DNA of 49,045 nt from Pseudomonadota bacterium (GTDB lineage Bacteria; Pseudomonadota; Gammaproteobacteria; Burkholderiales; Burkholderiaceae_C), in assembly GCA_031119395.1 (NCBI GenBank), contig JAVHYA010000036.1, positions 1 to 49,045 of the forward strand, written 5' to 3'. The stretch's first letter is position 1, and every line of letters begins with the position of its first letter. The notes under the pieces were generated by a model. That model had not been told where the DNA came from, made no database searches, and saw only the letters and a program-made list of their open reading frames with translations. Positions 8,468 to 24,207 of this stretch are shown piece by piece. A program made the translations under genes and the position numbers.

Positions 8468-9712
8468 GTGACCCTCGCTCCTTCCCCCGTTTCCGCCCTG
8501 CTGCTGCGTGAGGTGCGCCCGCTGGGTGCGGCGCCGGTCGACGTGCTGGTGCAGGGCGACCGCATCGCCGCCGTGGGGGCAGGCCTGCCGGTCCCGCCGG
8601 GCGCGGCGGTGGAGGAGGGCGGCGGCGCGCTGCTGCTGCCCGGCCTGGTCGAAGGCCACACGCACCTGGACAAGACGCTGTGGGGCCTGCCCTGGTACCG
8701 CAACGAGGTCGGCACGCGCCTGGTCGACCGCATCGACAACGAGCGCGCCTTCCGGCATGCGAGCGGGCACGATGCGGCGGCACAGTCGCTGGCGCTGGCG
8801 CGGGCCTTCCTGGCGACCGGCACCACGCGCATCCGCACGCACGTCGACATCGATACGCAGGCCGGCCTGAAGCACCTCGAGGGCGTGCTGCGCACGCGCG
8901 ACGCCATGGCGCCCTGGCAGCAGATCCAGACCGTGGCCTTCCCGCAGTCGGGCCTGCTCGTGCGGCCCGGCACGGCGGAACTGCTCGATGCCGCGCTGGC
9001 CGCCGGCGCCGACGTGCTGGGCGGCCTGGACCCCTGCGCCATCGACGGCGACCCGGTGCGCTCGCTGGACGTGCTCTTCGGCATCGCCGCGAAGCACGGC
9101 AAGCCCCTGGACATCCACCTGCACGAGCCCGGCGCGATGGGCGCCTTCTCGCTCGGCCTGATCCTCGAGCGCACCGAGGCGCTGGGCCTGCAGGGGCGCG
9201 TGGCGATCAGCCACGGCTTCTGCCTGGGCGACCTGGCCGCCGCGGAATGCAACGCCCTGCTGGCGCGCATGGCCGCGCTCGGGGTGGTGCTGGTCACCAG
9301 CGCGCCGCCCTCGCGCAGCGTGCCGCCGCTCATGGCCTGCCGCGCGGCCGGCGTCACGGTGCTGGGCGGCAACGACGGCATCCGCGACACCTGGACGCCC
9401 TACGGCACGCCCGACATGCTGGAACGCGCCATGCTCATCGGCCTGCGCTACAACCTGCGGCGCGACGACGAGATCGACATCGCGCTGGACTGCGTGACGC
9501 GTGCCGCCGCCCTGGGCTGCGGCTTCGCCGGGCACGGCCTCGTGCCCGGCAGCCGTGCCGAGCTCGTGCTGGTCGATGCGCAGAGCGTGGCGCATGCGGT
9601 GGTGGCCCGGCCGCCGCGGCGCCTGGTCGTCGCGGGGGGTGTGGTGGTGGCGCGGCACGGCGCGCTGCAGCCGGGCCTGCCGGGCGGCGAACGCGACCTC
9701 AGTCCAGCGTGA
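8468..9712 (+). CDS. cytosine-deaminase-like amidohydrolase
   Basis: A 414-residue metal-dependent amidohydrolase most like bacterial cytosine deaminase (CodA). Metal-site motifs lie in order: HTHLDK (HxH) at about residue 65, DIHLHEP for the next His, ISHGFCLG for the following His, and GGNDGIRDTWTPYGTPDMLE, matching the CodA 'DD.fDPW.PlGt.nML' region with its catalytic Asp. The likely reaction is hydrolytic deamination of cytosine or a related N-heterocycle, but substrate cannot be read reliably in this superfamily. No transporter (CodB) is adjacent. Start is uncertain: GTG 8468 keeps the family-like N terminus, GTG 8441 adds nine residues, and neither has a good Shine-Dalgarno. Confidence 0.82.
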   Translation: MTLAPSPVSALLLREVRPLGAAPVDVLVQGDRIAAVGAGLPVPPGAAVEEGGGALLLPGLVEGHTHLDKTLWGLPWYRNEVGTRLVDRIDNERAFRHASGHDAAAQSLALARAFLATGTTRIRTHVDIDTQAGLKHLEGVLRTRDAMAPWQQIQTVAFPQSGLLVRPGTAELLDAALAAGADVLGGLDPCAIDGDPVRSLDVLFGIAAKHGKPLDIHLHEPGAMGAFSLGLILERTEALGLQGRVAISHGFCLGDLAAAECNALLARMAALGVVLVTSAPPSRSVPPLMACRAAGVTVLGGNDGIRDTWTPYGTPDMLERAMLIGLRYNLRRDDEIDIALDCVTRAAALGCGFAGHGLVPGSRAELVLVDAQSVAHAVVARPPRRLVVAGGVVVARHGALQPGLPGGERDLSPA

Positions 9713-9797
9713 CCCACCGCACGAGCATCACGAACAGGAGCCATCCGCCCCCGAGTGCGAGTGCGGTGCACAGAGCGATCGCCAGCAGCCGTTGCAT
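9699..9797 (-). CDS. possible 32-aa single-span membrane peptide
   Basis: A tiny frame reads MQRLLAIALCTALALGGGWL and ends LVRWVTLD. It would be one hydrophobic helix with a positively charged start. It begins 15 bp after the stop of the YgaP-like gene on the same strand and overlaps the 3' end of the convergent amidohydrolase gene. The Shine-Dalgarno is poor, and nothing but position and hydrophobicity supports it. Confidence 0.35.
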   Translation of the reverse strand: MQRLLAIALCTALALGGGWLLFVMLVRWVTLD

Positions 9798-9812
9798 CGC
9801 CGCGCCGCCGTC

Positions 9813-10040
9813 TCAGGTCGACGAGCCCGGCGGCCGGGCGTCGGCCGGACGCGATCGCGTGCTGAAGCCGAACATCGCATACAGCGGGCAGTTGCCCGCC
9901 ACGCCCGTGAGCAGCGGCACGACACCCAGGTAGCCCCAGAGGCCGATCGCGCCCTGGATGGCGAGCCCGATGAGCAGCAGGCCCACCACGATCCGCAAGG
10001 CGCGGTCGAGGAGTCCGATGTTGGTGTGGATCCATGCCAT
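9813..10040 (-). CDS. YgaP-like small inner-membrane protein (DUF2892)
   Basis: A 75-residue membrane protein. The start MAWIHTNIGLLDRALRIVVG and the central GLWGYLGVVPLLTGVAGNCP with LYAMFGFST match the DUF2892/YgaP transmembrane module: 'N.g..dR.lR...G', two helices, then 'G.CPly...G'. YgaP in E. coli fuses this module to a rhodanese domain; here the membrane part stands alone. AGGAGAA sits about 7 nt before ATG 10040, which decides the start over a long upstream extension. A symmetric TTGCG-AAAG-CGCAA dyad lies about 60 bp upstream, suggesting control by an FNR-type regulator. Confidence 0.82.
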   Translation of the reverse strand: MAWIHTNIGLLDRALRIVVGLLLIGLAIQGAIGLWGYLGVVPLLTGVAGNCPLYAMFGFSTRSRPADARPPGSST

Positions 10041-10100
10041 GGCGAAGTTCTCCTGACGAGCAAGGGCCATCCATGGTGCGCGCACATGCCGCCGCCGGGG

Positions 10101-10114
10101 TTGCGAAAGCGCAA
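10101..10114. promoter_or_regulatory. FNR/Anr-type box upstream of the YgaP-like gene
   Basis: TTGCG-AAAG-CGCAA is a perfect dyad of the relaxed FNR/Anr form. Its centre is 41.5 bp from the start expected for a -10 CACCAT at 10073-10078 (minus strand), the class II activator position. The -10 is weak (3/6), as expected of an activated promoter. Confidence 0.55.
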
Positions 10115-11708: not shown

Positions 11709-11951
11709 TCAGCGCTGCGCCAGCTGCAGGGGGCCGGTCGAACCCTGGGCGGCCGAACCGGGCCGCGGCGGGGCAGGTGCATTGGACGAAGCCGGCGCGG
11801 ACAGGAGATCGAACGACAGGAAGGCGCAGACGACGCACATCAGCGCCCATTCCCATTGCATCGATCCGTCGTCCTTGTCCCGCCCCACCGTCCAGACCAG
11901 CAGTCCGACGATCACGAGCGCGACGCATGCCAGGTACCCAGTTGACAGCAT
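11709..11951 (-). CDS. small single-span membrane protein, 80 aa
   Basis: Unrecognised. It starts MLSTGYLACVALVIVGLLVW, a clear membrane helix, followed by a short charged loop (GRDKDDGSM), a second hydrophobic stretch (WALMCVVCAFLSFDLL) and a disordered Ala/Pro-rich tail. So it is probably a two-span hairpin in the inner membrane. AAAGG lies 8 nt before ATG 11951. An FNR-type box lies about 90 bp upstream, between it and the divergent 12128 gene. Confidence 0.6.
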   Translation of the reverse strand: MLSTGYLACVALVIVGLLVWTVGRDKDDGSMQWEWALMCVVCAFLSFDLLSAPASSNAPAPPRPGSAAQGSTGPLQLAQR

Positions 11952-12040
11952 GGCAGACCTTTCGTTGTCGAGCATTTCGTCTTCGCGTGCCAAGAGCGTA
12001 GCGCCGGATTTCACGGTTGCGTCGAGGCCCCGCCGAGTGT

Positions 12041-12054
12041 TTGAGTTTTGTCAA
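12041..12054. promoter_or_regulatory. FNR/Anr-type box between divergent small genes
   Basis: TTGAG-TTTT-GTCAA is a near-consensus FNR-type dyad. For the rightward gene a weak -10 (GAGACT, 12077-12082) would put the box near -41. On the minus strand TACGCT at 11995-12000 would put it near -60, a class I position. It may serve one or both genes. Confidence 0.6.
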
Positions 12055-12127: not shown

Positions 12128-12517
12128 ATGGCCACGCACATCGTCGATCTGTCGGCGCGCTCCGAGGTGCTTCGAAACGAACCGTTCAGCGCGCATTTCT
12201 GGGAGTGCACGCCCAGCGAGTACAAGGCCTTCCTGGGCCGCCCCCGCGAGTTCCTTCGCGGCATCGGTGTCGAACTGGACCCGGGTTGCCGCATCGAGAC
12301 CCTGATCGAGAACCACGACCGCTTCAGCGACAGGGTGCCGGACTTCGACGGCGATTCCGACGAGGTGATCTGCAGCCTGGGCCGCAGCAACGCCGCGAAC
12401 GATGCCTACCGCGTGGTCAGCTATGCCCGCGACCGCAATCCCAAGAAGGTCAAGAAGCACCTGCTGCACAAGCCGGGCCGCGAGCGGGTGAAGGACAAGC
12501 ATGGGGACAAGGCGTGA
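12128..12517 (+). CDS. NHLP-leader-like protein of unknown function
   Basis: A 129-residue protein without a recognised full-length family. Residues 33-63 (FLGRPREFLRGIGVELDPG then CRIETLIENHD) match the nitrile-hydratase-like leader pattern 'l.dP...l...Gi.lp.g..v.v.en..d', found in nitrile hydratase alpha chains and in NHLP leader peptides of RiPP precursors. The remaining C-terminal 65 residues are polar and end in a strongly basic tail (KVKKHLLHKPGRERVKDKHG), unlike a usual RiPP core. No YcaO, lanthionine or radical-SAM enzyme is nearby. AAAGGAA precedes the ATG. It lies 10 bp before the universal stress gene and is probably co-transcribed with it from an FNR-controlled promoter. Confidence 0.6.
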   Translation: MATHIVDLSARSEVLRNEPFSAHFWECTPSEYKAFLGRPREFLRGIGVELDPGCRIETLIENHDRFSDRVPDFDGDSDEVICSLGRSNAANDAYRVVSYARDRNPKKVKKHLLHKPGRERVKDKHGDKA

Positions 12518-12527
12518 GGGGGCGGAC

Positions 12528-13349
12528 ATGACGCTGCGCCACATCCTCGTCCAGGCCGACAACTCGGCGCCATGCGGCGCCCGCGTGCGGACGGCCCGCG
12601 CGATCGCCGAGCGCTTCGACGCCACGGCGGTCGGCCTGCCCTGCATGACGACGGCCCTGATGCAGTATCCCTATTCCCTGGTGGCCCTCGGCGACACGCT
12701 GTCGGTGCTGCAGGATGTCGACAGGGAGGCGGCAGACAGGGCGCGCCGGACCTTCGAGGAGGGCGCTGCCGGCGCCGCCTGCATGGCCTGGGAACACCTG
12801 GTCGGACAGGGCCCGTGGGGATTCATCCGGCGGGCCTTCTATGCCGACCTGCTGGTTCTGGGGCAGCCCGATCCCGACGAACCCCTGGACGGCCGGTTGC
12901 CTGCCGATTTCCTGAGCAGCGTGTTGATGGAGAGCGGCAGGCCGGCGCTCGTGCTTCCCTACGTGGCCGGCCCGCTTCCCGACATCGGCCGGACCGTGCT
13001 GGTGGCATGGAAGGAGACGGCCGAGGCCGCACGAGCGCTGGCGGCTGCGTGGCCGTGGCTGGCCAGGGCCGCGGCGGTCCATGTCGTCAGCTACGGAGAC
13101 GGTGCGGCGCAGGCGCTCGGCCGTGTGCAGGCGCTCATGGCGGCCCACGGCGTGTCGGCCAAGGTCCACGACGGCGGGGTCGACGAGGCCGACGCGGGCG
13201 AACGTCTTCTCTCGCTGGCGGCGGACCTGGATGCGGGCCTGCTCGTGATGGGCTGCTACGGACACAGCAGGGCCCGGGAGTGGATGTTCGGCGGTGTGAC
13301 ACGCACCTTGCTGGCGTCCACGACCGTGCCCTTGCTCATGGCGAGCTGA
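12528..13349 (+). CDS. tandem universal stress protein (UspA family)
   Basis: A 273-residue protein with two Usp domains (about 1-145 and 155-270). The second ends with the ATP-binding motif G-x2-G-x9-G then S/T: MGCYGHSRAREWMFGG, then VTRTLLASTTVPLLM. The first is divergent and lacks that glycine pattern, so probably only one site binds nucleotide. Usp proteins support survival under starvation and oxygen limitation, and in Pseudomonas several are Anr targets. GAGGGGG lies just before ATG 12528. It forms an operon with the NHLP-like gene, whose promoter region carries an FNR-type box. Confidence 0.88.
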   Translation: MTLRHILVQADNSAPCGARVRTARAIAERFDATAVGLPCMTTALMQYPYSLVALGDTLSVLQDVDREAADRARRTFEEGAAGAACMAWEHLVGQGPWGFIRRAFYADLLVLGQPDPDEPLDGRLPADFLSSVLMESGRPALVLPYVAGPLPDIGRTVLVAWKETAEAARALAAAWPWLARAAAVHVVSYGDGAAQALGRVQALMAAHGVSAKVHDGGVDEADAGERLLSLAADLDAGLLVMGCYGHSRAREWMFGGVTRTLLASTTVPLLMAS

Positions 13350-13444: not shown

Positions 13445-14254
13445 CTAGTGGGTGGTCGGCGTCATCGCCGGTGGTGCCAGGGGCAACGTCACCACGAAGG
13501 TGGTGCCGCAGCCGGGGCCGGGGCTGTCGGCATGGACGCTGCCGCCGTGCTCGTTCACGATGCTGCGCACCAGCGCCAGCCCGATTCCCTGGCCCGGAAC
13601 AGCCGGGTCGGGCCGCACGCGCTGGAACATGCCGAAGATCAGGTCGCGGTCGCTGGCGTCGAGGCCGCGCCCGTTGTCGCGCACCGACATGCAGACGCGG
13701 TCGGGGCAGGGCCGCTCCACCGTCAGGGCGACGAGGCCGCCCGGCGGCGTGAACTTGGCGGCGTTCAGCAACAGGTTGGCGACCGCCTGCGCGAGGCGGA
13801 CGCAGTCACCGACGACATGGACCGGTTCGGCGGGAACGCGGCACTCGAAGCGGTGCTCGCGTCCCTCCAGGGTGGGGCGTGCCAGGTCGATGCCGCCCTC
13901 GATGGCCTCGCGCAGATCGAAGTCCTTACGCACGACGCTCAGCTGGCAACGCCGGATGCCGTCCACATCCCCCAGGTCGGCAATGAGTCGCGAAAGATGC
14001 CGCGCCGCGCGCGACGCGTGGGCGATGGCCCGTTCGCGCTGGGTGCCGGGGCCGCAGGTCTCGGCCAATCGAAGGGCCGAGAGCACCGGCGAGATCGCGT
14101 TCCTGAATTCGTGCGACAGCGTGGCCAGCGACTGCGCGCTGGCGACGTCCGGATCCCGGGCGGCGTCCCTGTCGCCGCCGAAGCCGGCGACCCCCCGGGT
14201 GTCGTGGCACGGCCGGGCGGACGGTGGAAGGGGGGTGGACGGGGTGGCGATCAT
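13445..14254 (-). CDS. orphan cytoplasmic sensor histidine kinase
   Basis: A 269-residue kinase with HisKA (SLATLSHEFRNAISPVLSAL; H-box His in HEFRN) and HATPase_c (LLLNAAKFTPPGG; RDNGRGL; GIGLALVRSIV; GTTFVVTLPL). There is no membrane span and the 60 N-terminal residues have no recognisable input domain, so the signal may come through a partner. No receiver gene is adjacent. ATG 14254 is the first good start; upstream the frame runs through a GGCCG tandem repeat, so that extension is not credible. It lies inside the FNR-box island, though I found no box directly before it. Confidence 0.82.
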   Translation of the reverse strand: MIATPSTPLPPSARPCHDTRGVAGFGGDRDAARDPDVASAQSLATLSHEFRNAISPVLSALRLAETCGPGTQRERAIAHASRAARHLSRLIADLGDVDGIRRCQLSVVRKDFDLREAIEGGIDLARPTLEGREHRFECRVPAEPVHVVGDCVRLAQAVANLLLNAAKFTPPGGLVALTVERPCPDRVCMSVRDNGRGLDASDRDLIFGMFQRVRPDPAVPGQGIGLALVRSIVNEHGGSVHADSPGPGCGTTFVVTLPLAPPAMTPTTH

Positions 14255-14336: not shown

Positions 14337-14576
14337 TCAGCCGTCCAACGGGACACCGCCGCCGAAGCGGGCGATCCATTGGTCCAGCAACTCGCGTTGG
14401 GCCTGTGTGCAACCGCGATGCCATGCGGCCCAGAACTCGAACCACGGATGCACGAAGCTCAGCGCCGGCATGGCGGCCGTGGTGAGCAGCGGCGCCATGT
14501 CGAGCAGGGGCCACTGCACGGCAGGCGCCAGGCCGGCGTCCGGCCCGGGTGGCGAGGAGGACTCTCGCTTGCTCAC
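14337..14576 (-). CDS. hypothetical protein, 79 aa, coupled to the BON gene
   Basis: Not recognised. It starts at GTG 14576, which overlaps the BON gene stop as GTGA, so it is probably translationally coupled. The first 20 residues are polar; the rest looks helical and aromatic-rich (HPWFEFWAAWHRGCTQAQRE, then LLDQWIARFGGG). This aromatic amphipathic pattern recalls short phasin- or granule-associated helices, but that is only an impression. It shares its presumed FNR-type promoter with the BON gene. Confidence 0.6.
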   Translation of the reverse strand: MSKRESSSPPGPDAGLAPAVQWPLLDMAPLLTTAAMPALSFVHPWFEFWAAWHRGCTQAQRELLDQWIARFGGGVPLDG

Positions 14577-15229
14577 AGTGGCGCCACGTTCAGGTCGTTC
14601 TGCACACTCGTCACGCCGGGGGCCGACCAGGCGGCACGCTGGGCCACCGCGCGTTCCGCCCACGAATGCACCGAGCCGGACAGGGTGGCCTTGTTGCCGG
14701 TCACCGCCACGCGGATCTTGTTCGCCTCGTCGAGCGCCTGGCGCTCCAGGGCCTGGCGGATCAGGCCCGACACCTCGGCCGGCGTCGCCGCAGGCTTGAG
14801 CGTGAGGTTGTTCGACACGCCCAGGACGCCGGTCAGCGAGCGCACGGCGCGCAGGGCCACGCGGCGCTGGAAGTCCCAGTCCACCTGGCCGCTGAGCGTG
14901 ATCCAGCCGTTCTCGACGCGCACCTTCACCGTGTCGGCGGGCAGCTCCGACTGCCAGGCCAGCGCCCGGTCGGCCGCCTCCGCGATCTCCGTGTCGCTGC
15001 GCTTGTGGCCCGGGGCGAGCCGGACGTCGAGCTCGATGGCGACGGCCCGCACGCCGCGCACCTGCTGGACCGCCCGCTCGATGGCGAACTTCTCCGCGTA
15101 GGTGGCCAAGTGGCCGGACAGCGTGACCACGCCCTCCGTGACGGCGATGCCCACATGGTTGGCGTTGATCGACGGGTCCCAGGCCAGTTCGGCTTCCACG
15201 TCGGCCTTGAGCTGCGCATCTGTCTTCAT
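14573..15229 (-). CDS. triple BON-domain protein
   Basis: A 218-residue protein made of three BON domains at about 3-70, 78-145 and 150-215. Each carries the module signature: an initial 'D..l...v...L..dp', then an 'i.v.v..g.vtLsG.v' strand such as VTEGVVTLSGHL, VENGWITLSGQVDW and VTGNKATLSGSVHSW. BON proteins (OsmY, Kbp) bind membranes or potassium and respond to stress. No signal peptide is visible, so it is probably cytoplasmic, unlike OsmY. AAGGAAAGGA precedes ATG 15229. A TTGAT-GAAC-CGCAA box about 90 bp upstream suggests low-oxygen control. Confidence 0.87.
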   Translation of the reverse strand: MKTDAQLKADVEAELAWDPSINANHVGIAVTEGVVTLSGHLATYAEKFAIERAVQQVRGVRAVAIELDVRLAPGHKRSDTEIAEAADRALAWQSELPADTVKVRVENGWITLSGQVDWDFQRRVALRAVRSLTGVLGVSNNLTLKPAATPAEVSGLIRQALERQALDEANKIRVAVTGNKATLSGSVHSWAERAVAQRAAWSAPGVTSVQNDLNVAPL

Positions 15230-15651
15230 CTCTGCGTCCTTTCCTTGCAATGGTTCGGGGGGAGTCACGGCTCGCAACCCACCGGAGGCCATCGTCGGCG
15301 CGGGGGAGCAGCCGGCCTTTGCGGTTCATCAATTCATGCGCATGTCCCCGGGCGCACGGTGACGCCCTTCAGCGCCGGTGCCTGCGGACCGGCGGGGCGC
15401 CGTGCGGCACAGTGGCGGGCAGCGGCAACTGCGACACCTGCGCGAGGACATCGATCTGTCGGGGCGCCTGCGCACGCCAGAGGGAGGTCGTGCCCACCGC
15501 AGGCGAGGGCGCCGTCGGCGGGCGGGCGCCGCCGTTCTGTTCCGTCAGCGCAGGATCACGGCCGGTGTCGGGCCGCGGCAGGCGAGGCGTGCGGCGCGGG
15601 GCCATGGACAGTCCGGTCAGCGGCGGCGCGGAAGGCGGACCCGCGGGGTGC
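15230..15651. other. 422-bp gap holding one FNR box and no secure gene
   Basis: This gap separates the BON gene from the alanine-rich gene, both on the minus strand. It contains the FNR-type box described separately. A minus-strand frame from ATG 15605 to 15369 could encode 78 residues ending in basic PVRRHRR, but it has no Shine-Dalgarno, no family resemblance and an Arg/Pro-rich composition typical of chance frames in GC-rich DNA. I do not call it. Confidence 0.5.
15319..15332 (-). promoter_or_regulatory. FNR/Anr-type box upstream of the BON gene
   Basis: On the minus strand the site reads TTGAT-GAAC-CGCAA. A weak -10 (GACGAT, 15291-15296) would place its centre near -41.5. The left half is full consensus. 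Confidence 0.6.
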
Positions 15652-16278
15652 TCATTTGGGTGCGCCCTGGGAGGCAGGCGGGCTGCCGTCGTCCTGCCGC
15701 CTGCCTGCCCGTGCGGCCGCCTGGTCCAGGGCACGCGCGGCGGAAGCCGCGGCCTGCTCCGCGCGCTGCAAGGCGCGCTGGGTCGCCGCCAGCGCCTCGC
15801 GCGCCTGCTCCGCGCTGAGCTCGCGGTAGCGGTTCGCCAGCGACTCCGCCCGATCCAGCGCGTCGCGGGATGCCCGGGCCGCGTCGGCGCTGGCGTCGGC
15901 CGCGGCACGTGCGGCATCGCGGCCTTCTTCGCGTGCGGACGCGGCCGATCGCTCCGCCGCCTCGCGCAGGCGCGTGGCGGACTGCGCCGCCTCCCGGCTG
16001 GCCTTGCGGATCACCTCGACCATCGCCTGCGACAGCCGGCCGGCCTCGACGTCGGCCGCCGCGACCGCCTTCCGCGCGGACTGGACGGACGCTGCTGCAG
16101 CGGCCTTCGCCTCCCTGGCAGCGGACCTGGCGGCTTCGATCGCAGGGTCCGGCGGCGGGCTGAGCAGGCCCGGCGGGTCGGCCGCCAGAGCGGCGCCGAC
16201 GGGTGCGAGCGCGAGCAGGAGGGCACACGCGAGACGGGCATGCCGATGCCACTCCCGGTGCAGGAACGGCAGGGGCAT
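15652..16278 (-). CDS. alanine-rich periplasmic coiled-coil protein
   Basis: A 208-residue protein with a signal peptide (basic HREWHRHARLA, hydrophobic CALLLALAPVGAALA, cleavage near ALA-ADPP). The mature part is almost entirely alpha-helical with Ala-rich heptads (ARSAAREAKAAAAASVQSAR ... EQAREALAATQRALQRAEQA), so it should form long coiled coils in the periplasm. I know of no specific family. An in-frame ATG at 16380 would add 34 residues before the signal, so 16278 is preferred. The upstream region has one of the best FNR-type promoters in the window. Confidence 0.7.
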   Translation of the reverse strand: MPLPFLHREWHRHARLACALLLALAPVGAALAADPPGLLSPPPDPAIEAARSAAREAKAAAAASVQSARKAVAAADVEAGRLSQAMVEVIRKASREAAQSATRLREAAERSAASAREEGRDAARAAADASADAARASRDALDRAESLANRYRELSAEQAREALAATQRALQRAEQAAASAARALDQAAARAGRRQDDGSPPASQGAPK

Positions 16279-16410
16279 AGGCCGCGGCGCCAGCCCGGGG
16301 GCCGTGGCGTGCCCGCCCGGTGCGCGAGGTGCGGCGGTGCTCGGGCGTGTGGGGCGGATGGGCTGCAGGGTCGGGCGCATGGCGAGTTCGAAGGACGGAT
16401 GACGCACTTC

Positions 16411-16451
16411 AATGTAGGCCGCCGGCCGTGGCGGGCCTTGAGCCCCGTCAA
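16411..16451 (-). promoter_or_regulatory. class II FNR-type promoter of the alanine-rich gene
   Basis: The box TTGAC-GGGG-CTCAA (minus strand, 16438-16451) is followed by a -10 TACATT at 16411-16416. The box centre lies about 40.5 bp before the predicted start of transcription, the classical class II FNR geometry. The same TACATT at the same distance occurs at 20991. Confidence 0.68.
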
Positions 16452-16528: not shown

Positions 16529-17032
16529 TCAGGCCAGGGCGTGCAGCAGCAACGCCTGCAGGACCAGCGTCCGGCCCTGCCGTGTGGGGAGATCGGCCTG
16601 CACGCGCCGCGCCAGCAGATCCAGCGTGGCCACGCGCACGGCAGCGTCGTCGAGCACCGGGATGCCGGCGTGCTCGGCGATGCGCCCGACCACGACCGGC
16701 TCGACGCCCTGGCATTCGATCGCTTCGTAGAGGCGCCCGAGCATGCGCGCCGTGCTCGACACCTCCTGGGGCGGATCGTCGACGCGCAGTTGCAGCGGCA
16801 TGACGGCCACCTGCGCGCCCAGCGCGTGCGCCGCATCGCAGAACAGGGCTTGCGACGGGCCCGACGCGACAGCGTAGATCAGCCCCAGATGCCGCCCCTG
16901 CAAGGGCTGCGGCGAACGCCCTTCCTGCTGGGCCGTCCACAGCCGCCGGGCGCGTACGACGATGTCCCCGGTCGCCTGCTCGACGGCCAGGGGGTCGTCG
17001 AAGACGCGCCCGGAGGATGGTGAGGGACTCAT
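16529..17032 (-). CDS. OTCase-like N-terminal-domain protein, probably non-catalytic
   Basis: A 167-residue protein resembling only the carbamoyl-phosphate-binding half of ornithine/aspartate transcarbamylases. Residues 45-82 (GRHLGLIYAVASGPSQALFC) line up with 'k.lalIFeK.STRTR.sFe.a', and 88-127 (SSTARMLGRLYEAIECQGVE ... AEHAGIPVLDD) with 'DTArVLgRmyDaI..Rg......LA.ya.vPV.n'. The catalytic STRTR is replaced by ASGPS and the ornithine-binding C-terminal half is absent, so transcarbamylase activity is unlikely. It may be a binding or regulatory protein, or a relic. GCAGGA precedes ATG 17032. An FNR-type box sits 55-68 bp upstream. Confidence 0.68.
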   Translation of the reverse strand: MSPSPSSGRVFDDPLAVEQATGDIVVRARRLWTAQQEGRSPQPLQGRHLGLIYAVASGPSQALFCDAAHALGAQVAVMPLQLRVDDPPQEVSSTARMLGRLYEAIECQGVEPVVVGRIAEHAGIPVLDDAAVRVATLDLLARRVQADLPTRQGRTLVLQALLLHALA

Positions 17033-17086: not shown

Positions 17087-17100
17087 TTGACGAATATCAA
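17087..17100. promoter_or_regulatory. FNR/Anr-type box between OTCase-like and CRP-family genes
   Basis: TTGAC-GAAT-ATCAA (minus strand TTGAT-ATTC-GTCAA) is the closest match here to the FNR consensus. Leftward, TAGCCT at 17058-17063 would put the box near -42. Rightward I see no good -10 at class II distance, but the box lies about 170 bp before the regulator's ATG and could act on it too. Confidence 0.68.
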
Positions 17101-17264: not shown

Positions 17265-18035
17265 ATGAACCCACTGCATCTCCAGGCGCCCGCGCCGCGC
17301 CCCGCCGCCTTCCTGCACCAGGCCGGTGTGCCTTCGAGCATGGAGGTCGGCGATCCGATCGGCTCGCGCCTGCGCCGGCTGCGCGAACAGCTCGACCCCG
17401 TGCGCCGGGTCGTCCACGCGGGCGAGACGATCTTCCAGGCGGGCGAGCGCTTCGCCCACCTCCACGTCGTCAACGCCGGGCTGTTCAAGTTGATCAACAC
17501 GTCGGCCGACGGCCGGGAGCAGGTGGTGGGTTTCAAGTTCAGGGGCGACTGGATCGGATTCGACGGCATCGCCGACGGCCGTCACAAGAGCGATGCGGTG
17601 GCGATGGACACCAGCGAGGTCTGGGTCCTGCCCTACGAGCAGCTGCTGGCCCGTTCGGTGCAGCAACCGGGCTTGCTGGGCGAACTCCACGCCGCGATGA
17701 GCCGCGAAATCGCCCACGACCGGGAGTCGATGATGGCGCTGTGCACCCTGCCCGCCGATGCCCGCGTGGCGGACTTCCTGCGCTACTGGGCGGAGAGCCT
17801 GGCGATGCGGGGCATGCGCACGGACGAGATCGCGCTTCGCCTGACGCGGGCCGAGATCGGCAACTACCTCGGCATGACGCTGGAGAGCGTGAGCCGGGCG
17901 CTGTCGAAGCTGGTGCGTGCCGGCGTGATCGCCTTCTGCAGCAAGGGGCGCCGCGACGTGCGCATTCCGGATGTCGAGGCGCTCGGCCGCTTCGTCCAGC
18001 GCTACCTCGTGCCCGCCTCGGCGACGCTGCAGTAG
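17265..18035 (+). CDS. CRP/FNR-family regulator lacking the Fe-S cysteines
   Basis: A 256-residue regulator. The cNMP-type sensory domain (about 40-160: VVHAGETIFQAGERFAHLHV, FRGDWIGFDGIADG) and C-terminal helix-turn-helix (LTRAEIGNYLGMTLESVSRA) are clear. The recognition helix has the E..SR residues of FNR, so it should read TTGAT half-sites. The N-terminal tail has no cysteines, unlike FNR, so it cannot carry the 4Fe-4S cluster; it is closer to Dnr/FixK-type proteins. ATG 17265 begins after leader sequence with no family features. With the Cys-containing FNR at 23443 it makes a two-regulator set around the FNR boxes. Confidence 0.87.
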   Translation: MNPLHLQAPAPRPAAFLHQAGVPSSMEVGDPIGSRLRRLREQLDPVRRVVHAGETIFQAGERFAHLHVVNAGLFKLINTSADGREQVVGFKFRGDWIGFDGIADGRHKSDAVAMDTSEVWVLPYEQLLARSVQQPGLLGELHAAMSREIAHDRESMMALCTLPADARVADFLRYWAESLAMRGMRTDEIALRLTRAEIGNYLGMTLESVSRALSKLVRAGVIAFCSKGRRDVRIPDVEALGRFVQRYLVPASATLQ

Positions 18036-18063: not shown

Positions 18064-20154
18064 TCAGCGGCGCGGGTCTACGCGGGCCAGGGCATCGGCG
18101 AGGTCGGCGCGCGAGAACGGCTTTTGCAGCAGCTCGCAACCCGCGGGAAGCTGGCGGTCCGCTTCCATCAATTCGGCCGAGTAGCCCGACATCAGCACGA
18201 TGGGAAGGCCGGGCACCCTCTGCAGGGCCTGCACGGCCAGCGTGGTGCCCTGGATGCCCGGGCCCAGCGAGACGTCGCTCAGCAGCAGGTCGAAGCGGAG
18301 TGCGCCGGCTTGAAGCAGGGCCAGCGCCTCCTCGCCGCTGGCGGCTTCCCGGACGTCGTAGTCCAGGGAGCGCAGGAGTCGGCAGGCGACCTTGCGCACC
18401 TCCGGATCGTCCTCGACGAGCAGCGCGCGCGCGCCGGCACGGCGAACGAAGGCGGGCGGCTCGGCCCGCACGCCATCGGCGGCGGCATGTTCGTCGTCGC
18501 TCGGCAGGCAAAGCGTCACCGTGGTGCCCGCGCCGGGCGCGGACTCGACCACGACATGGCCGTGCGACTGGGAGGCGAAGCCGTAGACCGTGCTCAGCCC
18601 CAGGCCGGTTCCCCGGCCGGGCGGCTTGGTGGTGAAGAAGGGCTCGAACGCGCGCTTCTTCGTCTGCTCGTCCATGCCCGCGCCGGTGTCGGTGACGGCG
18701 ATCGCCACCAGCGGCCGGCGCCCGGCGTCCGGCGCACCGGCCGCCTGCGTCATCGGGTAGGCCCGGAAGCTCAGGTCGCCTCCGCCGGGCATCGCGTCGC
18801 GGGCATTGATGGCGAGGTTCAGGAGTGCGGACTCCAGCTGGCTGGCGTCGACCCACGCGGCCGGGCAGCCCGGCGCGACGTGCAGTGCGACGTGGATCCG
18901 CCGGTCCAGCGTGCGGCCCAGCATGTCGCACAGCGACTCGAGGAGCACGCGCAGGTCGACCCGCTCCGTCTGGAGTCTCTGGCGCCGCGAGAACGCCAGC
19001 AGCTTGCCGGTCAGCGCGGCACCGCGTCCCGCGGCGCGCGTGGCGGCCTGCAGGAGTCGCCCGGCCTCGGGGTCGCGGGCCACGGCGGGCAGGTCCTCCA
19101 GGACCTGCAGGTTGCCCTGGACGATCGTCAGGAGGTTGTTGAAATCGTGGGCGACGCCGCCGGTGAGCTGGCCGATGCTCTCGAGCCGCTGCGCGTGGTC
19201 GAGCTGTTCCTCGGACTGCAGGCGCTGGTGGGTGGTGGCGAGCAGGTTGGCGGCCGACTCGAGGAAGCGCAGTTCGTCGTCGCCGAAGCGATGCGGCTGC
19301 CGGCTCCTGACCGACAGGATGCCGATGACCTGCCCCCGGTCGGCCAGCGGCACGGCGAGTGCGCTTCGCAGGCCCGCATCCAGCCAGGGCCGCGGCACGG
19401 GAAAGCGCGTCTCGGTCCGCAAGTCCGTCACCAGCACGGCGGACGCTTGCCGGGCGACGATGCCGGGGAGGGAGTCCGGCCGGTTCGCCAACTGGAGTCC
19501 GACGTATTCGCCCGCAGGCATGCCCACGCCGCCGACCAGCCGGAAGTCGCTGCCCGAGCGATCGAGCAGCCAGGCGATCGCCACCTCCACCTCCTGGGCG
19601 GAGGCCACGATCTCAGGCACGCGCTGGACGATCTGCGGCAGGTCACGGCTCTCGACCGTCAGCCGCGCCAGTTGGGCGAGGTGGTCGCTGTACCGGGCAC
19701 GCTTCAGGGCCTGCTTGACGCGCGGGTACTCCGCGATGTCGCGGATGGCGGCCAGGACGAAGTGCGATCCGGGGCGCTCCATGGGGCTGAGGGCGATCTC
19801 GACGACGACTTCGGTGCCGTCCTTGCGCCGGGCGGCCAGCTCGGTGCGGGTGCCCATGGGCCTGCGCTGCGGCGCCCGCGCGTAGGCCGCCCGGTAGCTC
19901 GCGTGGCGCGCCCGGCTCGCATCGGGCACCAGGTTCTCGATCGGCATGCCGGACAGTTCGGCCACCGTGTACTGCAGGAGCGATGCGGCCGCCGGATTGG
20001 CCGCGGCGATCGCGCCGCCCGGCCCGACCACGAGCAAGGCGTCGGGGTGGGCCTCGAAGATCGATTCGAACACCTGCGCGGCCACGCTCGAGGCGGCCGC
20101 CGGCCCGGCCGGCGCGGCGCCGTCGAGGGCCTGGCCTCGTGCCGGTTCAGCCAT
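18064..20154 (-). CDS. PAS-GAF hybrid sensor histidine kinase
   Basis: A 696-residue soluble hybrid kinase: PAS at about 25-145 (FESIFEAHPDALLVVGPGGA; GMPIENLVP), GAF at about 170-310 (LRSALAVPLADRGQVIGILS), HisKA at about 325-390 (GGVAHDFNNLLTI), HATPase_c at about 430-560 (LNLAINARDAMPGG; DTGAGMD; FFTTKPPGRGTGLGLSTVYG), and a receiver at about 580-690 (ARALLVEDDPEVRKVA; acceptor Asp in LLLSDVSLG; Lys in LLQKPFS). ATG 20154 overlaps the end of the response regulator gene by 8 nt (ATGGCTGA), so the two are translationally coupled. PAS/GAF input without membrane spans suggests a cytoplasmic redox, gas or energy signal. Confidence 0.88.
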   Translation of the reverse strand: MAEPARGQALDGAAPAGPAAASSVAAQVFESIFEAHPDALLVVGPGGAIAAANPAAASLLQYTVAELSGMPIENLVPDASRARHASYRAAYARAPQRRPMGTRTELAARRKDGTEVVVEIALSPMERPGSHFVLAAIRDIAEYPRVKQALKRARYSDHLAQLARLTVESRDLPQIVQRVPEIVASAQEVEVAIAWLLDRSGSDFRLVGGVGMPAGEYVGLQLANRPDSLPGIVARQASAVLVTDLRTETRFPVPRPWLDAGLRSALAVPLADRGQVIGILSVRSRQPHRFGDDELRFLESAANLLATTHQRLQSEEQLDHAQRLESIGQLTGGVAHDFNNLLTIVQGNLQVLEDLPAVARDPEAGRLLQAATRAAGRGAALTGKLLAFSRRQRLQTERVDLRVLLESLCDMLGRTLDRRIHVALHVAPGCPAAWVDASQLESALLNLAINARDAMPGGGDLSFRAYPMTQAAGAPDAGRRPLVAIAVTDTGAGMDEQTKKRAFEPFFTTKPPGRGTGLGLSTVYGFASQSHGHVVVESAPGAGTTVTLCLPSDDEHAAADGVRAEPPAFVRRAGARALLVEDDPEVRKVACRLLRSLDYDVREAASGEEALALLQAGALRFDLLLSDVSLGPGIQGTTLAVQALQRVPGLPIVLMSGYSAELMEADRQLPAGCELLQKPFSRADLADALARVDPRR

Positions 20155-20878
20155 CGGCCACCGACCCGACGAAGATGTACCCGGCACCGCGCACCGACTT
20201 GATCAGCTGCGGGTCGTCGGGGTTCGCCTCGATCTTGCGCCGCAGGCGCCCCACCTGCACGTCGATCGTGCGGTCGAAGGGCGCGGCGTCGCGCCCGCGC
20301 GTACAGCCGAGCAGGAAGTCGCGCGAAAGCACGCGTCCGGGGTTGCGGGCGAAGGCCTGCAGCAGTTCGAACTCGCCGCGGGTCAGGGGAACGTCCTCGC
20401 GCGCCGCGTTCCTCAGGCTGCGCGCCGCGGTGTCGAGTGTCCAGCCGGAGAAACGCAGCAGGCCAGCCTGCTGCGGTGCGCCGGCGGCCGCCGCGGCGTC
20501 GGCGCGCGGGGCGGTGCGCCGCAGCACGGCCTTGACCCGGGCCACGAGCTCGCGCAGGTCGAAAGGCTTGGTCACGTAGTCGTCGGCACCGACCTCCAGC
20601 CCCACCACCCGGTCCACCGCGTCGCCCCGGCCCGTGACGATGATCAGCCCGCAGCTGTGGTGTTCCCGCAGGCTGCGTGCGATGGAGAAGCCGTCCTCGC
20701 CCGGCAGGCCGAGGTCCAGCAGCACCAGGTCCGCCGGATCGGCCCGCATGGTGCTCAGCAGCGAGCCGCCGTCCTGGTGGGTGGACACCCGGAAGCCATG
20801 GCTTCGCAGGTAGTGCTCCACCAGCGCGGTGATCTCCGCCTCGTCGTCCAGGACTGCAACGTGGAAGCCGGTCTTCAT
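20147..20878 (-). CDS. OmpR-type response regulator
   Basis: A 243-residue response regulator. The receiver (VAVLDDEAEITALVEHYL; acceptor Asp in LVLLDLGLPGEDG; Thr/Lys in TGRGD and VTKPFDLREL) is followed by a winged-helix domain (PLTRGEFELLQAFARNPG; RTIDVQVGRLRRKIEANPDD; IKSVRGAGYIFVG). It is the first gene of a two-gene operon with the hybrid kinase. A good sigma70 promoter lies just upstream, and an FNR-type box further out. Confidence 0.92.
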   Translation of the reverse strand: MKTGFHVAVLDDEAEITALVEHYLRSHGFRVSTHQDGGSLLSTMRADPADLVLLDLGLPGEDGFSIARSLREHHSCGLIIVTGRGDAVDRVVGLEVGADDYVTKPFDLRELVARVKAVLRRTAPRADAAAAAGAPQQAGLLRFSGWTLDTAARSLRNAAREDVPLTRGEFELLQAFARNPGRVLSRDFLLGCTRGRDAAPFDRTIDVQVGRLRRKIEANPDDPQLIKSVRGAGYIFVGSVADG

Positions 20879-20955: not shown

Positions 20956-20996
20956 TTGATCTGGCGCAAGGCTGCGCGACAGGGGCCGCCTACATT
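20956..20996 (+). promoter_or_regulatory. class II FNR-type promoter of the flavodoxin-like gene
   Basis: The box TTGAT-CTGG-CGCAA (20956-20969) is followed by a -10 TACATT (20991-20996). The centre lies about 40.5 bp before the expected start. This is the same box/-10 geometry as at 16411-16451 on the other strand. Confidence 0.7.
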
Positions 20997-21019
20997 GGGG
21001 CGTCCATCGGAGATGCCCC

Positions 21020-21547
21020 ATGAGCAAGGTGTTGGTCGTTGTGTATTCGTACACCGGTACGTCGCGGCGGGTGGCGCAGCTGCTGTGCAGCCAGCAGGGC
21101 TGGCCCCTGGGCACGGTGGCCGACGTGCGGCCGCGCCGGGGCGTCGAAGGCAATCTGCGCTGCATCCTCGATTCGCTGCTCCGGCGGCGGCCACCGGTGC
21201 GCTACGACGGGCCGCCGCCCGAGACCTTCGACCTCGTGGTCCTCGTCGCACCGGTGTGGTTGCTGCGCCTGGCCGGCCCCATGCGCAGCTTTGTCGGGCG
21301 TTCGGGGCGGTCGCTGCAGCGCGTGGCCGTGCTGTCGGTGATGGGCGGGCAGGGGGCGCCCAATGCCGCCGCCGAGATCGCCGCCCTCTGCGGGTCGACG
21401 CCGGTGCTGGCCGCCGCCGTGACCCAGCGCGAGGCGGACGACGGGAGCTGCGCCGGCCTGCTGCAGTCCTTCGGCACCGCGATCCAGGGCGCGCTGGGCC
21501 CCGCGGCGCCGGTGCGCGCCGCCGAGCTCTCCACGCAGGCCGTCTAG
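21020..21547 (+). CDS. flavodoxin-like protein
   Basis: A 175-residue flavodoxin-fold protein. The N-terminal FMN phosphate-binding loop is clear: VLVVVYSYTGTSRRVAQLL, matching 'iv.YsstG.T...A', followed by the FDLVVLVAPVWLLRLAGPMR segment, equivalent to 'D.ii.g.PvW....p.p...fl'. It probably binds FMN and serves in electron transfer or as a quinone/oxidative-stress reductase. GGAGAT precedes the ATG. It leads a two-gene unit with the HtrA-like protease (14 bp apart). Confidence 0.82.
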   Translation: MSKVLVVVYSYTGTSRRVAQLLCSQQGWPLGTVADVRPRRGVEGNLRCILDSLLRRRPPVRYDGPPPETFDLVVLVAPVWLLRLAGPMRSFVGRSGRSLQRVAVLSVMGGQGAPNAAAEIAALCGSTPVLAAAVTQREADDGSCAGLLQSFGTAIQGALGPAAPVRAAELSTQAV

Positions 21548-21561
21548 GCGCGAGGGGCGCG

Positions 21562-23004
21562 ATGGTGCAAGCACGTCGCGCAGGGCGCGGGGCGCGCGTC
21601 GCCGGGGCGGTGCTTGCGGGCGCGCTGCTCGCGGGCTGCGCGGCCGCAGGACGCGCGGAGCCCGGGGCCGCCGAATCCCCCGCCGCCATCCGGCCGGATG
21701 CGTCCGGCTTTTCGGCTCTGGCCGGGCAGCTCGCGCATTCGGTGGTCGACATCCGCACCTTGCGCATCGGCCGCGACGAAGCCGCCGAAGACCAGAGCCC
21801 CGACCTTTCGCCCGACTTCGACTTCGCGGATCGGCTGGCGCAGCCCCTGGCCACGCAGGTGCAGGTGAGCCAGGTCCGGGACCTCGCATCGGGGCTCGTC
21901 CTGCGCGAGGACGGGCTCATCCTCACGAGTGCGCACGTGGTGGCGGGTGTGGACGACGTCCAGGTCCAGCTCGACGACGGGCGCCGCTTCACCGCGCGCG
22001 TGCTCGGGCTGGACCGGCGCACGGATGTCGGTCTGCTGAAGATCGAGACGAAGGGCCTCCCGGTGGCGCTCCTGGGCGATCCGGCCGGCACCCGGGCGGG
22101 GGACTGGGTGGCCGCGATCAGTTCTCCCTTCGGCTTCCATTCGAGCGTGACGGCCGGTGTCGTCAGTGCCGTGGGGCGCTTTCTCAACGGCGCGGGCGAG
22201 ATCCCGTTCATCCAGACCGACGTCGCCATCAACCCCGGCAGTTCGGGCAGCCCGCTGTTCAACGCGCGAGGCGAAGTCGTGGGCATCAATTCCCTGATCT
22301 ACAGCGCCAACGGCGGCTACATGGGCCTGTCCTTCGCGGTGCCGATCGATGTGGCGATGCGTGTGGTCCGGCAACTGGAGCGCGAGGGCGCCGTGCGTCG
22401 CCCGCAGCTGGGCGTCGCGACGCAGTCCCTGACGCCCGCGCTCGCCGACGCATTCCAGCTGCCGCGCGCCGAAGGCGCGCTGGTGGTGCGGGTGACGGCG
22501 GGCAGTGCGGCCCAGCGCGGCGGGCTGGCGCCGGGCGATGTGGTGCTCGTCGCCAACGGCATCGCGATCCGCCAGCCGCTGGACCTCGTGAACGTCGTCG
22601 GCGGGCAGCCCGAACGGGCGCCGCTGCTGTTGCAGGTGTCGCGGGCGGGGCGGGCACTGGCCTTGCGTGTCGTGCCGGGACCCACGCCAGCGCCTGCGCC
22701 GATCGACTTCAGGCCCGTCGACATGCCCTGGCGCGACGGCATGGGCCTGAGCCTGGCCGAGCTGTCGCCGCGTCTGCGCGCCCAGGCGGGCGTGGACACC
22801 GGCGTGCTGGTGCGCGAGGTCGAGGGCGCCGCACGGCGCGATGGCGTCCAGCGCGGCGACGTGATCGTCGGTCTCAATGCGGAGAAGGTGTCGGGCGTCG
22901 ACGAGTTCAAGCGCGCCCTGGCCAGGGCGGCCGCCCGCCCCGCCGTCGCCCTGCTCGTGGTCCGCGAGCGGCGCACGGCCTACGTGCCCGTGCAGCTGCG
23001 TTGA
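21562..23004 (+). CDS. HtrA/Deg-type serine protease with lipobox and two PDZ domains
   Basis: A 480-residue S1C protease. The catalytic triad is His in LTSAHVVAG, Asp in RRTDVGLLKI and Ser in NPGSSGSPLF. Two PDZ domains follow at about 290-370 and 395-475 (GLAPGDVVLVANG; GVQRGDVIVGLN). The N terminus has a signal sequence ending LLAGC, a lipobox with Cys26, so it may be a membrane-anchored lipoprotein rather than a soluble periplasmic DegP/DegQ. HtrA proteases refold or degrade damaged envelope proteins. GAGGGG precedes ATG 21562. It probably shares the FNR-type promoter of the flavodoxin-like gene. Confidence 0.88.
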   Translation: MVQARRAGRGARVAGAVLAGALLAGCAAAGRAEPGAAESPAAIRPDASGFSALAGQLAHSVVDIRTLRIGRDEAAEDQSPDLSPDFDFADRLAQPLATQVQVSQVRDLASGLVLREDGLILTSAHVVAGVDDVQVQLDDGRRFTARVLGLDRRTDVGLLKIETKGLPVALLGDPAGTRAGDWVAAISSPFGFHSSVTAGVVSAVGRFLNGAGEIPFIQTDVAINPGSSGSPLFNARGEVVGINSLIYSANGGYMGLSFAVPIDVAMRVVRQLEREGAVRRPQLGVATQSLTPALADAFQLPRAEGALVVRVTAGSAAQRGGLAPGDVVLVANGIAIRQPLDLVNVVGGQPERAPLLLQVSRAGRALALRVVPGPTPAPAPIDFRPVDMPWRDGMGLSLAELSPRLRAQAGVDTGVLVREVEGAARRDGVQRGDVIVGLNAEKVSGVDEFKRALARAAARPAVALLVVRERRTAYVPVQLR

Positions 23005-23065
23005 GGACGCGTTCGTGATCTTTCACCGGACCTGACCCGAGCCGGCCCCGCTCGGTGCACTGGCC

Positions 23066-23107
23066 TTGACGTGCCGCAAGATCGGACCGGGGCCTGCGTC
23101 CTACGCT
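23066..23107 (+). promoter_or_regulatory. FNR-type promoter of the dksA-like/fnr pair
   Basis: Box TTGAC-GTGC-CGCAA (23066-23079) with a -10 TACGCT (23102-23107). The centre lies about 41.5 bp before the predicted start. If right, FNR would control its own synthesis through the upstream dksA-like gene. Confidence 0.6.
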
Positions 23108-23146
23108 GCGGGCACCGCTCGCATCGTGGCGGCATGAAAGGGCGGG

Positions 23147-23467
23147 ATGCCTACATCTGATTCGTGGAGACAGGCGCACGCGCGCCTGAACGCGTGGCGC
23201 GATCGGGCGCTGGACGAGCTCGTCCAGGGTGCCGGCGTGCGGGAGCCGGGGGCCGTACGGGGTGCCGGTCCACGGCCGGCGCAGGCGCGCTGCGCGCGGT
23301 GCCTCTCGCGGGAGATCGACCTCGCCTTGATCCGGCTCGATCACGGCCGCTATGGCCTGTGCGAGGACTGTGGCGCCGCCATCGCGCACGAGCATCTGGA
23401 CATCCAGCCCGCGGCAACCCGGTGCGCCGCGTGCCAGGTGGCATGGGACCGAGCAGCACGCCATTGA
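23147..23467 (+). CDS. short DksA/TraR-family zinc-finger protein
   Basis: A 106-residue DksA/TraR-type protein. The C4 zinc finger is intact: GRYGLCEDCGAAIAHEHLD ... ATRCAACQ, preceded by a helical segment with an extra CARC. It is shorter than DksA and closer to TraR in size. TraR and DksA bind the RNA polymerase secondary channel and change promoter choice. The acidic tip typical of DksA is not obvious, so its potency is uncertain. It overlaps the start of the FNR gene by 25 nt, so the two are probably co-translated. Confidence 0.8.
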   Translation: MPTSDSWRQAHARLNAWRDRALDELVQGAGVREPGAVRGAGPRPAQARCARCLSREIDLALIRLDHGRYGLCEDCGAAIAHEHLDIQPAATRCAACQVAWDRAARH

Positions 23468-24207
23468 GCGCCGCCCCGGCGGTGGCGGCGCGGGAGGGGC
23501 TGTCCTGCCTCGGCTGCCCCCATCTGGGCATCTGCATGCCGGCGCAGGCCGTGCCCGGCGCGGGCCGGCCCGTCCGGCTGGTGTCGCGCCGCCTGCTGCT
23601 GCAGCGCCGCGAGCCGCTGCTCGCGCCGGGGGACCGTTTCACGGCCGTCTACGGCGTGCGCCGGGGTCTGCTCAAGGGCGTGCTGGCGACCGATGCATCC
23701 AGCGGCCTCGTCACCGGCTTCTTCTTCCCCGGCGACGTGGCGGGGCTGGACGGCATCGCGATGGACCGGCATCCGACCGGCGTGCTGGCGGTGACCGATG
23801 CCGAAGTCTGCGTCATTCCATTCGGGCGGCTGGAGGCCTGGGCCGCGCGCTCCCCGGCGGCGCAGCGTCATCTGCACCGCCTGCTGTCGCGGGAGATCGG
23901 GCGCGGCTGCATGGCCTTGCTGCCGCTGGCGCGGCTCACGGCGGTTCAGCGGGTCGCCGACTTCCTGCTGCGCTTCGCCGCCGCGCAGTCGCACGGCAGC
24001 GGCAACCCGTCCGATTTCGTGCTGTCCCTCACCCTGGAAGAGATGGGCAGCCACCTGGGCCTGAAGATGGAGACGGTGTCGCGCGTGCTGTCGCAGCTGG
24101 TGTCGCAGCGGCTGATCGCGCGGGAGGGCCGCAGCCTGCGGATTCTCGAGCAGGGCGACCTCGACCGCCTGGCGCGCGCCCAGCACGCCGGCCCCGAGGC
24201 GCCCTGA
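23443..24207 (+). CDS. fnr: FNR-type oxygen-sensing regulator
   Basis: A 254-residue FNR. The N-terminal cluster is C22-x2-C25-x5-C31 (SCLGCPHLGIC), the same spacing as E. coli FNR, and the fourth cysteine is C123 in AEVCVIPFGRLE, matching the Cys122 region. It should therefore hold an oxygen-labile 4Fe-4S cluster. The recognition helix (MGSHLGLKMETVSRVLSQL) keeps E..SR for TTGAT sites. AGGTGG just precedes ATG 23443. It is the best candidate to act on the seven boxes between 10.1 and 23.1 kb. The Anr/Fnr naming varies between genera. Confidence 0.9.
   Translation: MGPSSTPLSAAPAVAAREGLSCLGCPHLGICMPAQAVPGAGRPVRLVSRRLLLQRREPLLAPGDRFTAVYGVRRGLLKGVLATDASSGLVTGFFFPGDVAGLDGIAMDRHPTGVLAVTDAEVCVIPFGRLEAWAARSPAAQRHLHRLLSREIGRGCMALLPLARLTAVQRVADFLLRFAAAQSHGSGNPSDFVLSLTLEEMGSHLGLKMETVSRVLSQLVSQRLIAREGRSLRILEQGDLDRLARAQHAGPEAP

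Follow-up and report, generated by a model that had tools for sequence, protein, structure and literature searches.

A probable lxa-type accessory island of low-oxygen stress genes, with putative FNR class II promoters, in a Xenophilus-related genome

The lxa locus of Burkholderia cenocepacia is reported to be accessory, being absent from strain H111 (PMC6127331, PMC9104464, PMC3759415), and its proteins annotated as universal stress, BON, heat shock, polyhydroxybutyrate (PHB) and phosphotransacetylase proteins are reported to increase under low oxygen or during chronic infection (PMC6127331, PMC9104464). The Fnr1/Fnr3 network of Herbaspirillum seropedicae includes several FNR paralogs, the promoters of two uspA genes as direct Fnr targets, a class II site at -42 and sites with hybrid half-sites (PMC5934665). 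Here we analyse a 49,045-nucleotide stretch of a Xenophilus-related genome (assembly GCA_031119395.1, contig JAVHYA010000036.1, positions 1 to 49,045), referred to below as the window. It holds a 14-kb cluster of stress genes and regulators, the island, which we read, with a probability of roughly 0.8, as an accessory lxa-type low-oxygen stress island under FNR class II control; this reading is drawn from the sequence, spacing and conservation of its boxes, from co-occurrence across genomes and from the cysteines of the FNR paralog that it encodes.

By annotation, the genes described here share with lxa several universal stress proteins, a BON protein, an alpha-crystallin-type heat shock protein and a protein of 'flavin or nitro compound reduction', and the island is likewise accessory (PMC6127331, PMC9104464, PMC3759415). 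Whereas lxa is one block of about 50 genes, the genes in this genome fall into the island and a separate cluster on another contig (C62), and it is the two together that show the clustering of universal stress protein, BON and Hsp20 genes, Hsp20 being in C62 only. The lxa-like gene content proposed by an earlier, sequence-only reading of the window is borne out in this way by family content, not by alignment. A PhaC gene lies in the corresponding cluster of Xenophilus aerolatus E41, and phbB and acetate kinase are annotated in Variovorax boronicumulans; neither type was seen in our two clusters as read. The island in turn holds an FNR paralog, an HtrA protease, a DksA-like protein and kinases, lxa being compared by description only. 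DosR, the regulator of another hypoxic gene set, differs in class from FNR. Its dormancy regulon in Mycobacterium tuberculosis is similar in including universal stress proteins and an alpha-crystallin (PMC6127331). In the literature searched, we found neither a description of the island nor a paper that treats FNR, low oxygen and universal stress together in Variovorax; as far as searched, an lxa-like low-oxygen island is new in a Xenophilus-related genome and in Variovorax, and its mechanism is ordinary.

The earlier reading had pointed to seven FNR/Anr-type dyads in intergenic gaps, and seven exact TTG-N8-CAA dyads do occur, at 10101, 12041, 15319, 16438, 17087, 20956 and 23066, all between genes. 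At all seven, a -10-like hexamer of the form xAnnnT (base rate 9.3% per position) lies 21-23 bp downstream, towards a flanking gene. The distance of 40-43 bp to the -10 given earlier is right if counted from the start of the box to the end of the -10; the gap between box and hexamer is 21-23 bp. In FNR class II promoters the box is centred near -41.5, and a -10 at 21-23 bp places the centre of these boxes at about that point. The box of Herbaspirillum fnr1 is centred at -42 (PMC5934665). From box centre to start codon the distance is 57-97 bp, or 171 bp for the regulator gene at 17265. The boxes are listed below with their state in E41, in a metagenome-assembled genome (MAG) of the same genus (G012) and in a further assembly of the genus (G013). 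E41 is represented by two assemblies (G009, Xenophilus aerolatus E41, and G014, Xenophilus sp. E41 C111); treating them as two congeners was rejected, since no base differs between them over 19,900 bases of the island stretch, and they are counted once. Xenophilus is a genus of the Comamonadaceae.

10101..10114, minus strand: FNR-type box TTGCGCTTTCGCAA, assigned to the YgaP-like gene; -10-like CACCAT at 22 bp; orthologous box and -10 (CACGAT) in E41
12041..12054, plus strand: FNR-type box TTGAGTTTTGTCAA, assigned to the genes at 12128-13349; -10-like GAGACT at 22 bp, identical in E41 and G012
15319..15332, minus strand: FNR-type box TTGATGAACCGCAA, assigned to the BON gene; -10-like GACGAT at 22 bp, kept in E41 and G012
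16438..16451, minus strand: FNR-type box TTGACGGGGCTCAA, assigned to the gene at 15652-16380; -10 TACATT at 21 bp
17087..17100, no single strand: FNR-type box TTGACGAATATCAA between divergent genes, conserved in E41; -10-like AACTTT (plus strand, 21 bp; regulator gene at 17265) and TAGCCT (minus strand, 23 bp; gene with an ornithine carbamoyltransferase (OTC) domain)
20956..20969, plus strand: FNR-type box TTGATCTGGCGCAA, assigned to the flavodoxin-like and HtrA genes; -10 TACATT at 21 bp
23066..23079, plus strand: FNR-type box TTGACGTGCCGCAA, assigned to the DksA-like gene and FNR2, the FNR paralog that ends the island; -10 TACGCT at 22 bp; conserved in E41, G012 and G013

An xAnnnT hexamer is also found on the side facing away from the assigned gene at box 12041 (minus strand) and box 15319 (plus strand). 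The former may face the 11709 gene too, with AACCGT in the window and GACCGT in G012; E41 has no -10 there.

All seven boxes, with their -10s, are present in E41, and G012 has five, beside the genes that it retains. Conservation is concentrated in the arms: compared with E41, the arms agree at 42 of 42 bases, the inner eight positions at 48 of 56 and the two flanks at 79 and 82 of 140 (56-59%), and compared with G012 the figures are 30 of 30, 33 of 40, and 60 and 55 of 100. Sequence, spacing and conservation thus support the interpretation of these sites as putative FNR/CRP-type class II promoters, and on those grounds the earlier FNR-type assignment is upheld.

The window is contig C20 of a genome of 5,136,398 bases (5.14 Mb), which was searched by patterns and through a 336-kb sample. 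By pattern count the genome has 244 TTG-N8-CAA dyads, or 0.69 expected per 14.5 kb where the island has seven; the Poisson probability of seven or more is 8e-6, about 0.003 after multiplication by 354 windows. As background we took 17 stretches (336 kb on five contigs of the same genome; not random draws), which contain 11 dyads, none with xAnnnT at 21-23 bp on either strand, as against seven of seven in the island. Because the spacing was first spotted by eye in the island, other sets of boxes carry more weight. With xAnnnT at 21/22 bp, they give 5 of 7 in the C62 cluster, 12 of 15 in E41, and 17 of 28 and 18 of 19 in two Variovorax islands, compared with none of 10 in the background (edges trimmed) and none of the 4 dyads that the window, with 11 in all, holds outside the island; the C62 cluster was itself picked up by the box-plus--10 pattern, and seven of the E41 boxes are orthologs of island boxes. 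The stricter pattern TTGM-N6-KCAA-N21-23-TAnnnT has eight matches on both strands of the 5.14 Mb (two for the backwards control): four in the island, three at C62:65566-77300 and one at C46:27698, in the locus of the housekeeping fnr and cbb3 genes. That seven of the eight lie in the two clusters is partly a matter of selection, as C62 was found with the pattern; the four of eight in the island were not selected. The stricter half-site pattern TTGAY-N4-RTCAA occurs 10 times genome-wide, three of them on C46, the contig of the housekeeping FNR; further such boxes lie at C14:29946, C68:86831, C93:15894, C135:9113 and C156:10915.

A clustering of short dyads by chance or base composition is, on these figures, hardly credible: the dyad is indeed short (14 bases, six of them fixed), and one of 100 dinucleotide shuffles of the window also gave 11 matches, but this explanation is contradicted by the spacing, the conservation of the arms, the rarity of dyads with a -10 across the genome and their recurrence in Variovorax.

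The genes of the island are as follows.

9813..10040, minus strand: YgaP-like/DUF2892 small membrane protein, 75 aa (PF11127, E 5.5e-19)
11709..11975, minus strand: small membrane protein, DUF7942/SCO4225-like by family match
12128..12517, plus strand: 129-aa protein of no known family; conserved at 94-96% in congeners and at 50-62% in Variovorax and one MAG
12528..13349, plus strand: universal stress protein, 273 aa (PF00582)
13445..14254, minus strand: histidine kinase, 269 aa, no own box; unmatched in the G012 island
14337..14576, minus strand: 79-aa protein of no known family; the gene starts within the end of the BON gene; V. boronicumulans has a relative at 49%
14573..15229, minus strand: triple BON-domain protein, OsmY-like (PF04972, three stretches, E 2.2e-47)
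15652..16380, minus strand: Ala-rich protein with an uncertain start, of no known family; V. boronicumulans has a relative at 38%
16529..17029, minus strand: N-terminal domain of ornithine carbamoyltransferase alone (PF02729, 26.8 bits, below the cut-off of 29.9)
17265..18035, plus strand: CRP/FNR regulator without the N-terminal cysteine cluster, with an FNR-type E..SR recognition helix
18064..20187, minus strand: PAS-GAF-HisKA-HATPase-receiver hybrid kinase, no own box
20147..20878, minus strand: OmpR-type response regulator, no own box
21020..21547, plus strand: flavodoxin-like protein; relatives annotated flavodoxin in Variovorax
21562..23004, plus strand: HtrA/DegP-type serine protease by family match
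23147..23467, plus strand: short TraR/DksA-type zinc-finger protein (PF01258)
23464..24207, plus strand: FNR2, with C-X2-C-X5-C and a fourth Cys; its TTG start overlaps the DksA stop

Several observations weigh against the reading as an FNR-controlled low-oxygen island. Although the TTG and CAA arms are present in all seven boxes, six fall short of TTGAY-N4-RTCAA, which only box 17087 matches, so that box quality is uneven; some of the -10s are weak (CACCAT, GAGACT, GACGAT). Across the genome the loose dyad shows no excess (244, against 460 for the backwards pattern), and it is only its local density that is odd. Four units, namely the VOC gene, the LysR gene, the 13445 kinase and the operon of response regulator and hybrid kinase, lack a box of their own. 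In E41 the DksA-like gene is largely gone from between the box and FNR2 (L005 16456-16731), so not every island member is needed. Finally, boxes alone cannot tell which CRP/FNR protein binds. The 14-kb stretch is not a single closed regulon, given the four units without their own box and the boxes with -10s on C62 and at the fnr/cbb3 locus.

The claim that a Cys-containing FNR stands at the end of the island agrees with the alignment of FNR2 with a solved 'FNR type regulator', which covers all four cysteines (C-X2-C-X5-C and one internal); the four are present in each of four aligned FNR2 sequences, the window copy and three orthologs. FNR-type recognition helices carry the motif E..SR, and the METVSR of FNR2 fits it. 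With the NCBIfam Fnr model NF008365, FNR2 scores 109 bits against a cut-off of 228, a score by which it is to be classed as a diverged FNR paralog. It is likely to be an oxygen-sensing regulator and is a second FNR paralog of the genome. The housekeeping FNR at C46:19212, with which it shares 40% identity, also has C-X2-C-X5-C and has hemN-like and cbb3-like genes as neighbours (read from translations). FNR2 (87-91%) is present in 5 of the 15 genomes of the genus, with E41 counted twice, and a search of 399 sampled family genomes at E 1e-50 found it in 4, each from the genus; within these samples it is confined to the genus. A possible second oxygen input is the PAS domain of the hybrid kinase, which matches the haem PAS domains of FixL and DosP. 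The histidine and arginine of the FixL PAS domain both have known roles; the histidine is aligned and is kept in the window and three relatives, and the arginine is one place off by our reading of the alignment.

The genome encodes at least three FNR-type proteins that could read the boxes. That their chief reader is the housekeeping FNR or the Cys-less, FixK-like 17265 regulator, with FNR2 acting on other targets or on its own promoter only, is a possibility that we place somewhat below even odds. It would fit the two Variovorax stretches, where similar boxes abound yet the best match to FNR2 is a 17265-type regulator (~30%), the FNR-type recognition helix of the 17265 regulator, and G013, which keeps FNR2 and its box without the island. 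It fits less well with G012, whose island lacks the 17265 regulator and keeps all five boxes of the remaining genes; a search of G012 with FNR2 gave, among the matches listed, none in the score range of the 17265 regulator, and all four genus assemblies (three strains) with the 129-aa island gene also have FNR2. We consider very unlikely a response of the regulon to nitric oxide or nitrite, mediated by a Dnr/NnrR-type regulator, in place of one to oxygen mediated by FNR. Boxes of the Dnr type can scarcely be told from those of FNR, and the 17265 regulator has no cysteine cluster; the island nevertheless includes the four-cysteine FNR2, itself behind a box, the proteins scanned include no denitrification family, and the G012 boxes persist without the 17265 regulator.

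We infer from these features that the response would be to oxygen, that FNR2 and/or the housekeeping FNR would be the binding protein, and that it would activate rather than repress. In the proposed mechanism for the FNR-controlled island, falling oxygen would allow the iron-sulphur FNR to dimerise, and the dimer would bind the TTG-N8-CAA boxes, whose centres would lie about 41.5 bp upstream of the transcription starts, and activate the class II promoters. This would turn on the universal stress, BON, HtrA, flavodoxin-like, DksA-like and small proteins, the Cys-less regulator and FNR2, and activation of its own promoter by FNR2 would amount to positive feedback.

Some of the boxes are hybrids, with TTGAY on one side and TTGCG on the other. 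There are 18 in the genome, seven of them in the two clusters (backwards control, five). Among hybrids with a -10 on a single side, TTGAY is upstream in 17 of 18 (p 1.4e-4; own clusters 4:1, two Variovorax islands 13:0), and five more have a -10 on both sides (own clusters two, Variovorax three). The same polarity is seen in E41 (6:2) and G012 (4:0), partly in orthologs of our own boxes. In the 399 genomes of the family sample, with TAnnnT at 21-22 bp, the trend is modest (TTGAY upstream in 204 genomes, TTGCG upstream in 158); the six genus genomes in that sample have 14 TTGAY-upstream sites and one of the other kind. The Herbaspirillum hybrid sites combine half-sites differently (PMC5934665). 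It is conceivable, and we think unlikely, that the island boxes are polarised hybrids bound in fixed orientation by a heterodimer of housekeeping FNR and FNR2, which would make the stress set an AND gate for two oxygen sensors: only three of the seven island boxes are hybrids, the Variovorax stretches hold hybrids without FNR2, and both polarities are common in the family. The narrower idea that the TTGCG half-site is read only by FNR2 was rejected, as such sites occur in the Variovorax stretches without FNR2 and in many family genomes. FNR2 and the polarity of the hybrid boxes are the island's points of experimental interest.

The gene content of the island varies among congeners. No counterparts of the YgaP-like, 13445 kinase, OTC-domain, 17265 regulator and response regulator/hybrid kinase genes were found in the G012 island, where the sole hit to the 17265 regulator is FNR2 itself. 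In G013 (L103 9190-11612), FNR2 and its box have as direct neighbours the amidohydrolase and deaminase genes, which in the window border the island, and the island is absent; stress genes come and go beside FNR2.

The second cluster, at about 65-78.5 kb of C62, includes nitroreductase, CarS-like, phosphoribosyltransferase, HATPase, BON and AMP-ligase genes, together with genes for a 17-kDa-antigen-like protein, an AAA/CPT kinase, an alcohol dehydrogenase, Hsp20 and a universal stress protein. Its BON protein is 56% identical to that of the island, its P-type ATPase 80% identical to one so annotated in V. boronicumulans, and the same kind of boxes stand in front of several of its genes. Because E41 carries counterparts of both C62 (from the BON gene on) and the island on one contig, within about 41 kb and with PhaC between, the window island appears to belong to a larger low-oxygen set. 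The E41 cluster has an acetate kinase, read from translation; the nitroreductase end of C62 has no match in the E41 stretches examined. A phage-type integrase gene (L101 1346-2461), possibly of a mobile element, lies beside the E41 cluster. When the C62 BON protein is used as query, the strong matches are in the same five genus genomes as FNR2 and a sixth, G002, is weak; the match in G013 is of the type found on C31, without boxes nearby. In the stretch with this third BON protein (C31; L105 7556-8227), the only dyad is 6 kb away and has no -10.

Related islands are found on Variovorax megaplasmids (NZ_CP138497.1, about 134-176 kb; NZ_CP070344.1, about 196-245 kb, an unannotated record), with shared genes, partly shared gene order and class II boxes; they differ in being larger and in the absence of FNR2 from the stretches read. 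In NZ_CP138497.1, of V. boronicumulans, the BON, OTC-domain, CRP/FNR, hybrid kinase and response regulator genes follow the order of the island, and about 24 kb further on come the 129-aa protein, DksA, HtrA and flavodoxin, with six annotated universal stress proteins around. This record has 28 dyads in 42.3 kb, 17 of them with a -10 at 21/22 bp, and PDNC026 has 19 in 49 kb, 18 with a -10 so placed. Relatives of the 129-aa protein occur in Variovorax sp. CF079, where a box with GAAACT at 22 bp precedes the gene, on three Variovorax megaplasmids and in a Rhodospirillaceae MAG, whose 4.1-kb contig has no dyad; of the 399 genomes in the family sample just three have the protein, and these belong to this genus. 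Further afield, Cupriavidus metallidurans has a distant flavodoxin relative with the box TTGACGCACGTCAA and TAGGCT at 21 bp in front.

The earlier reading regarded four small genes as undescribed. Three of them, at 12128, 14337 and 15652, do match no Pfam or NCBIfam family and have Variovorax relatives; the fourth, at 16529, does not qualify, as it is related to the OTC N-terminal domain. For five members of the 129-aa family, Pfam at E values up to 1 gave one match in one member (E 0.15), and AlphaFold2 gave a mean predicted local distance difference test (pLDDT) score of 44 for five sequences. Ornithine carbamoyltransferase has two domains and the active-site motif STRTR; the 166-aa product of 16529-17029 has the N domain only, SGPSQ aligns with the STRTR of OTC in the PDB, and NCBIfam OTC models match it below their cut-offs. 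It is probably a non-catalytic OTC relative behind an FNR-type box, with relatives in Variovorax. The flavodoxin-like protein at 21020..21547 has no Pfam or NCBIfam match, and no Rfam family reaches its gathering score in 8000-26000. A perfect GGGCC x7.6 tandem repeat (14270-14307) closely precedes the start of the 13445-14254 kinase and may be a length-variable element, as the two genes neighbouring its position nearly touch in E41.

By sequence, Xenophilus and Variovorax join Burkholderia, where it has been studied, as carriers of a hypoxia island of the lxa kind, with promoters predicted at single-base precision. The island is a compact case of a second FNR beside a set of stress genes, a paralog that among the samples searched only part of one genus has, and it names the three uncharacterised proteins at 12128, 14337 and 15652 as likely low-oxygen proteins.

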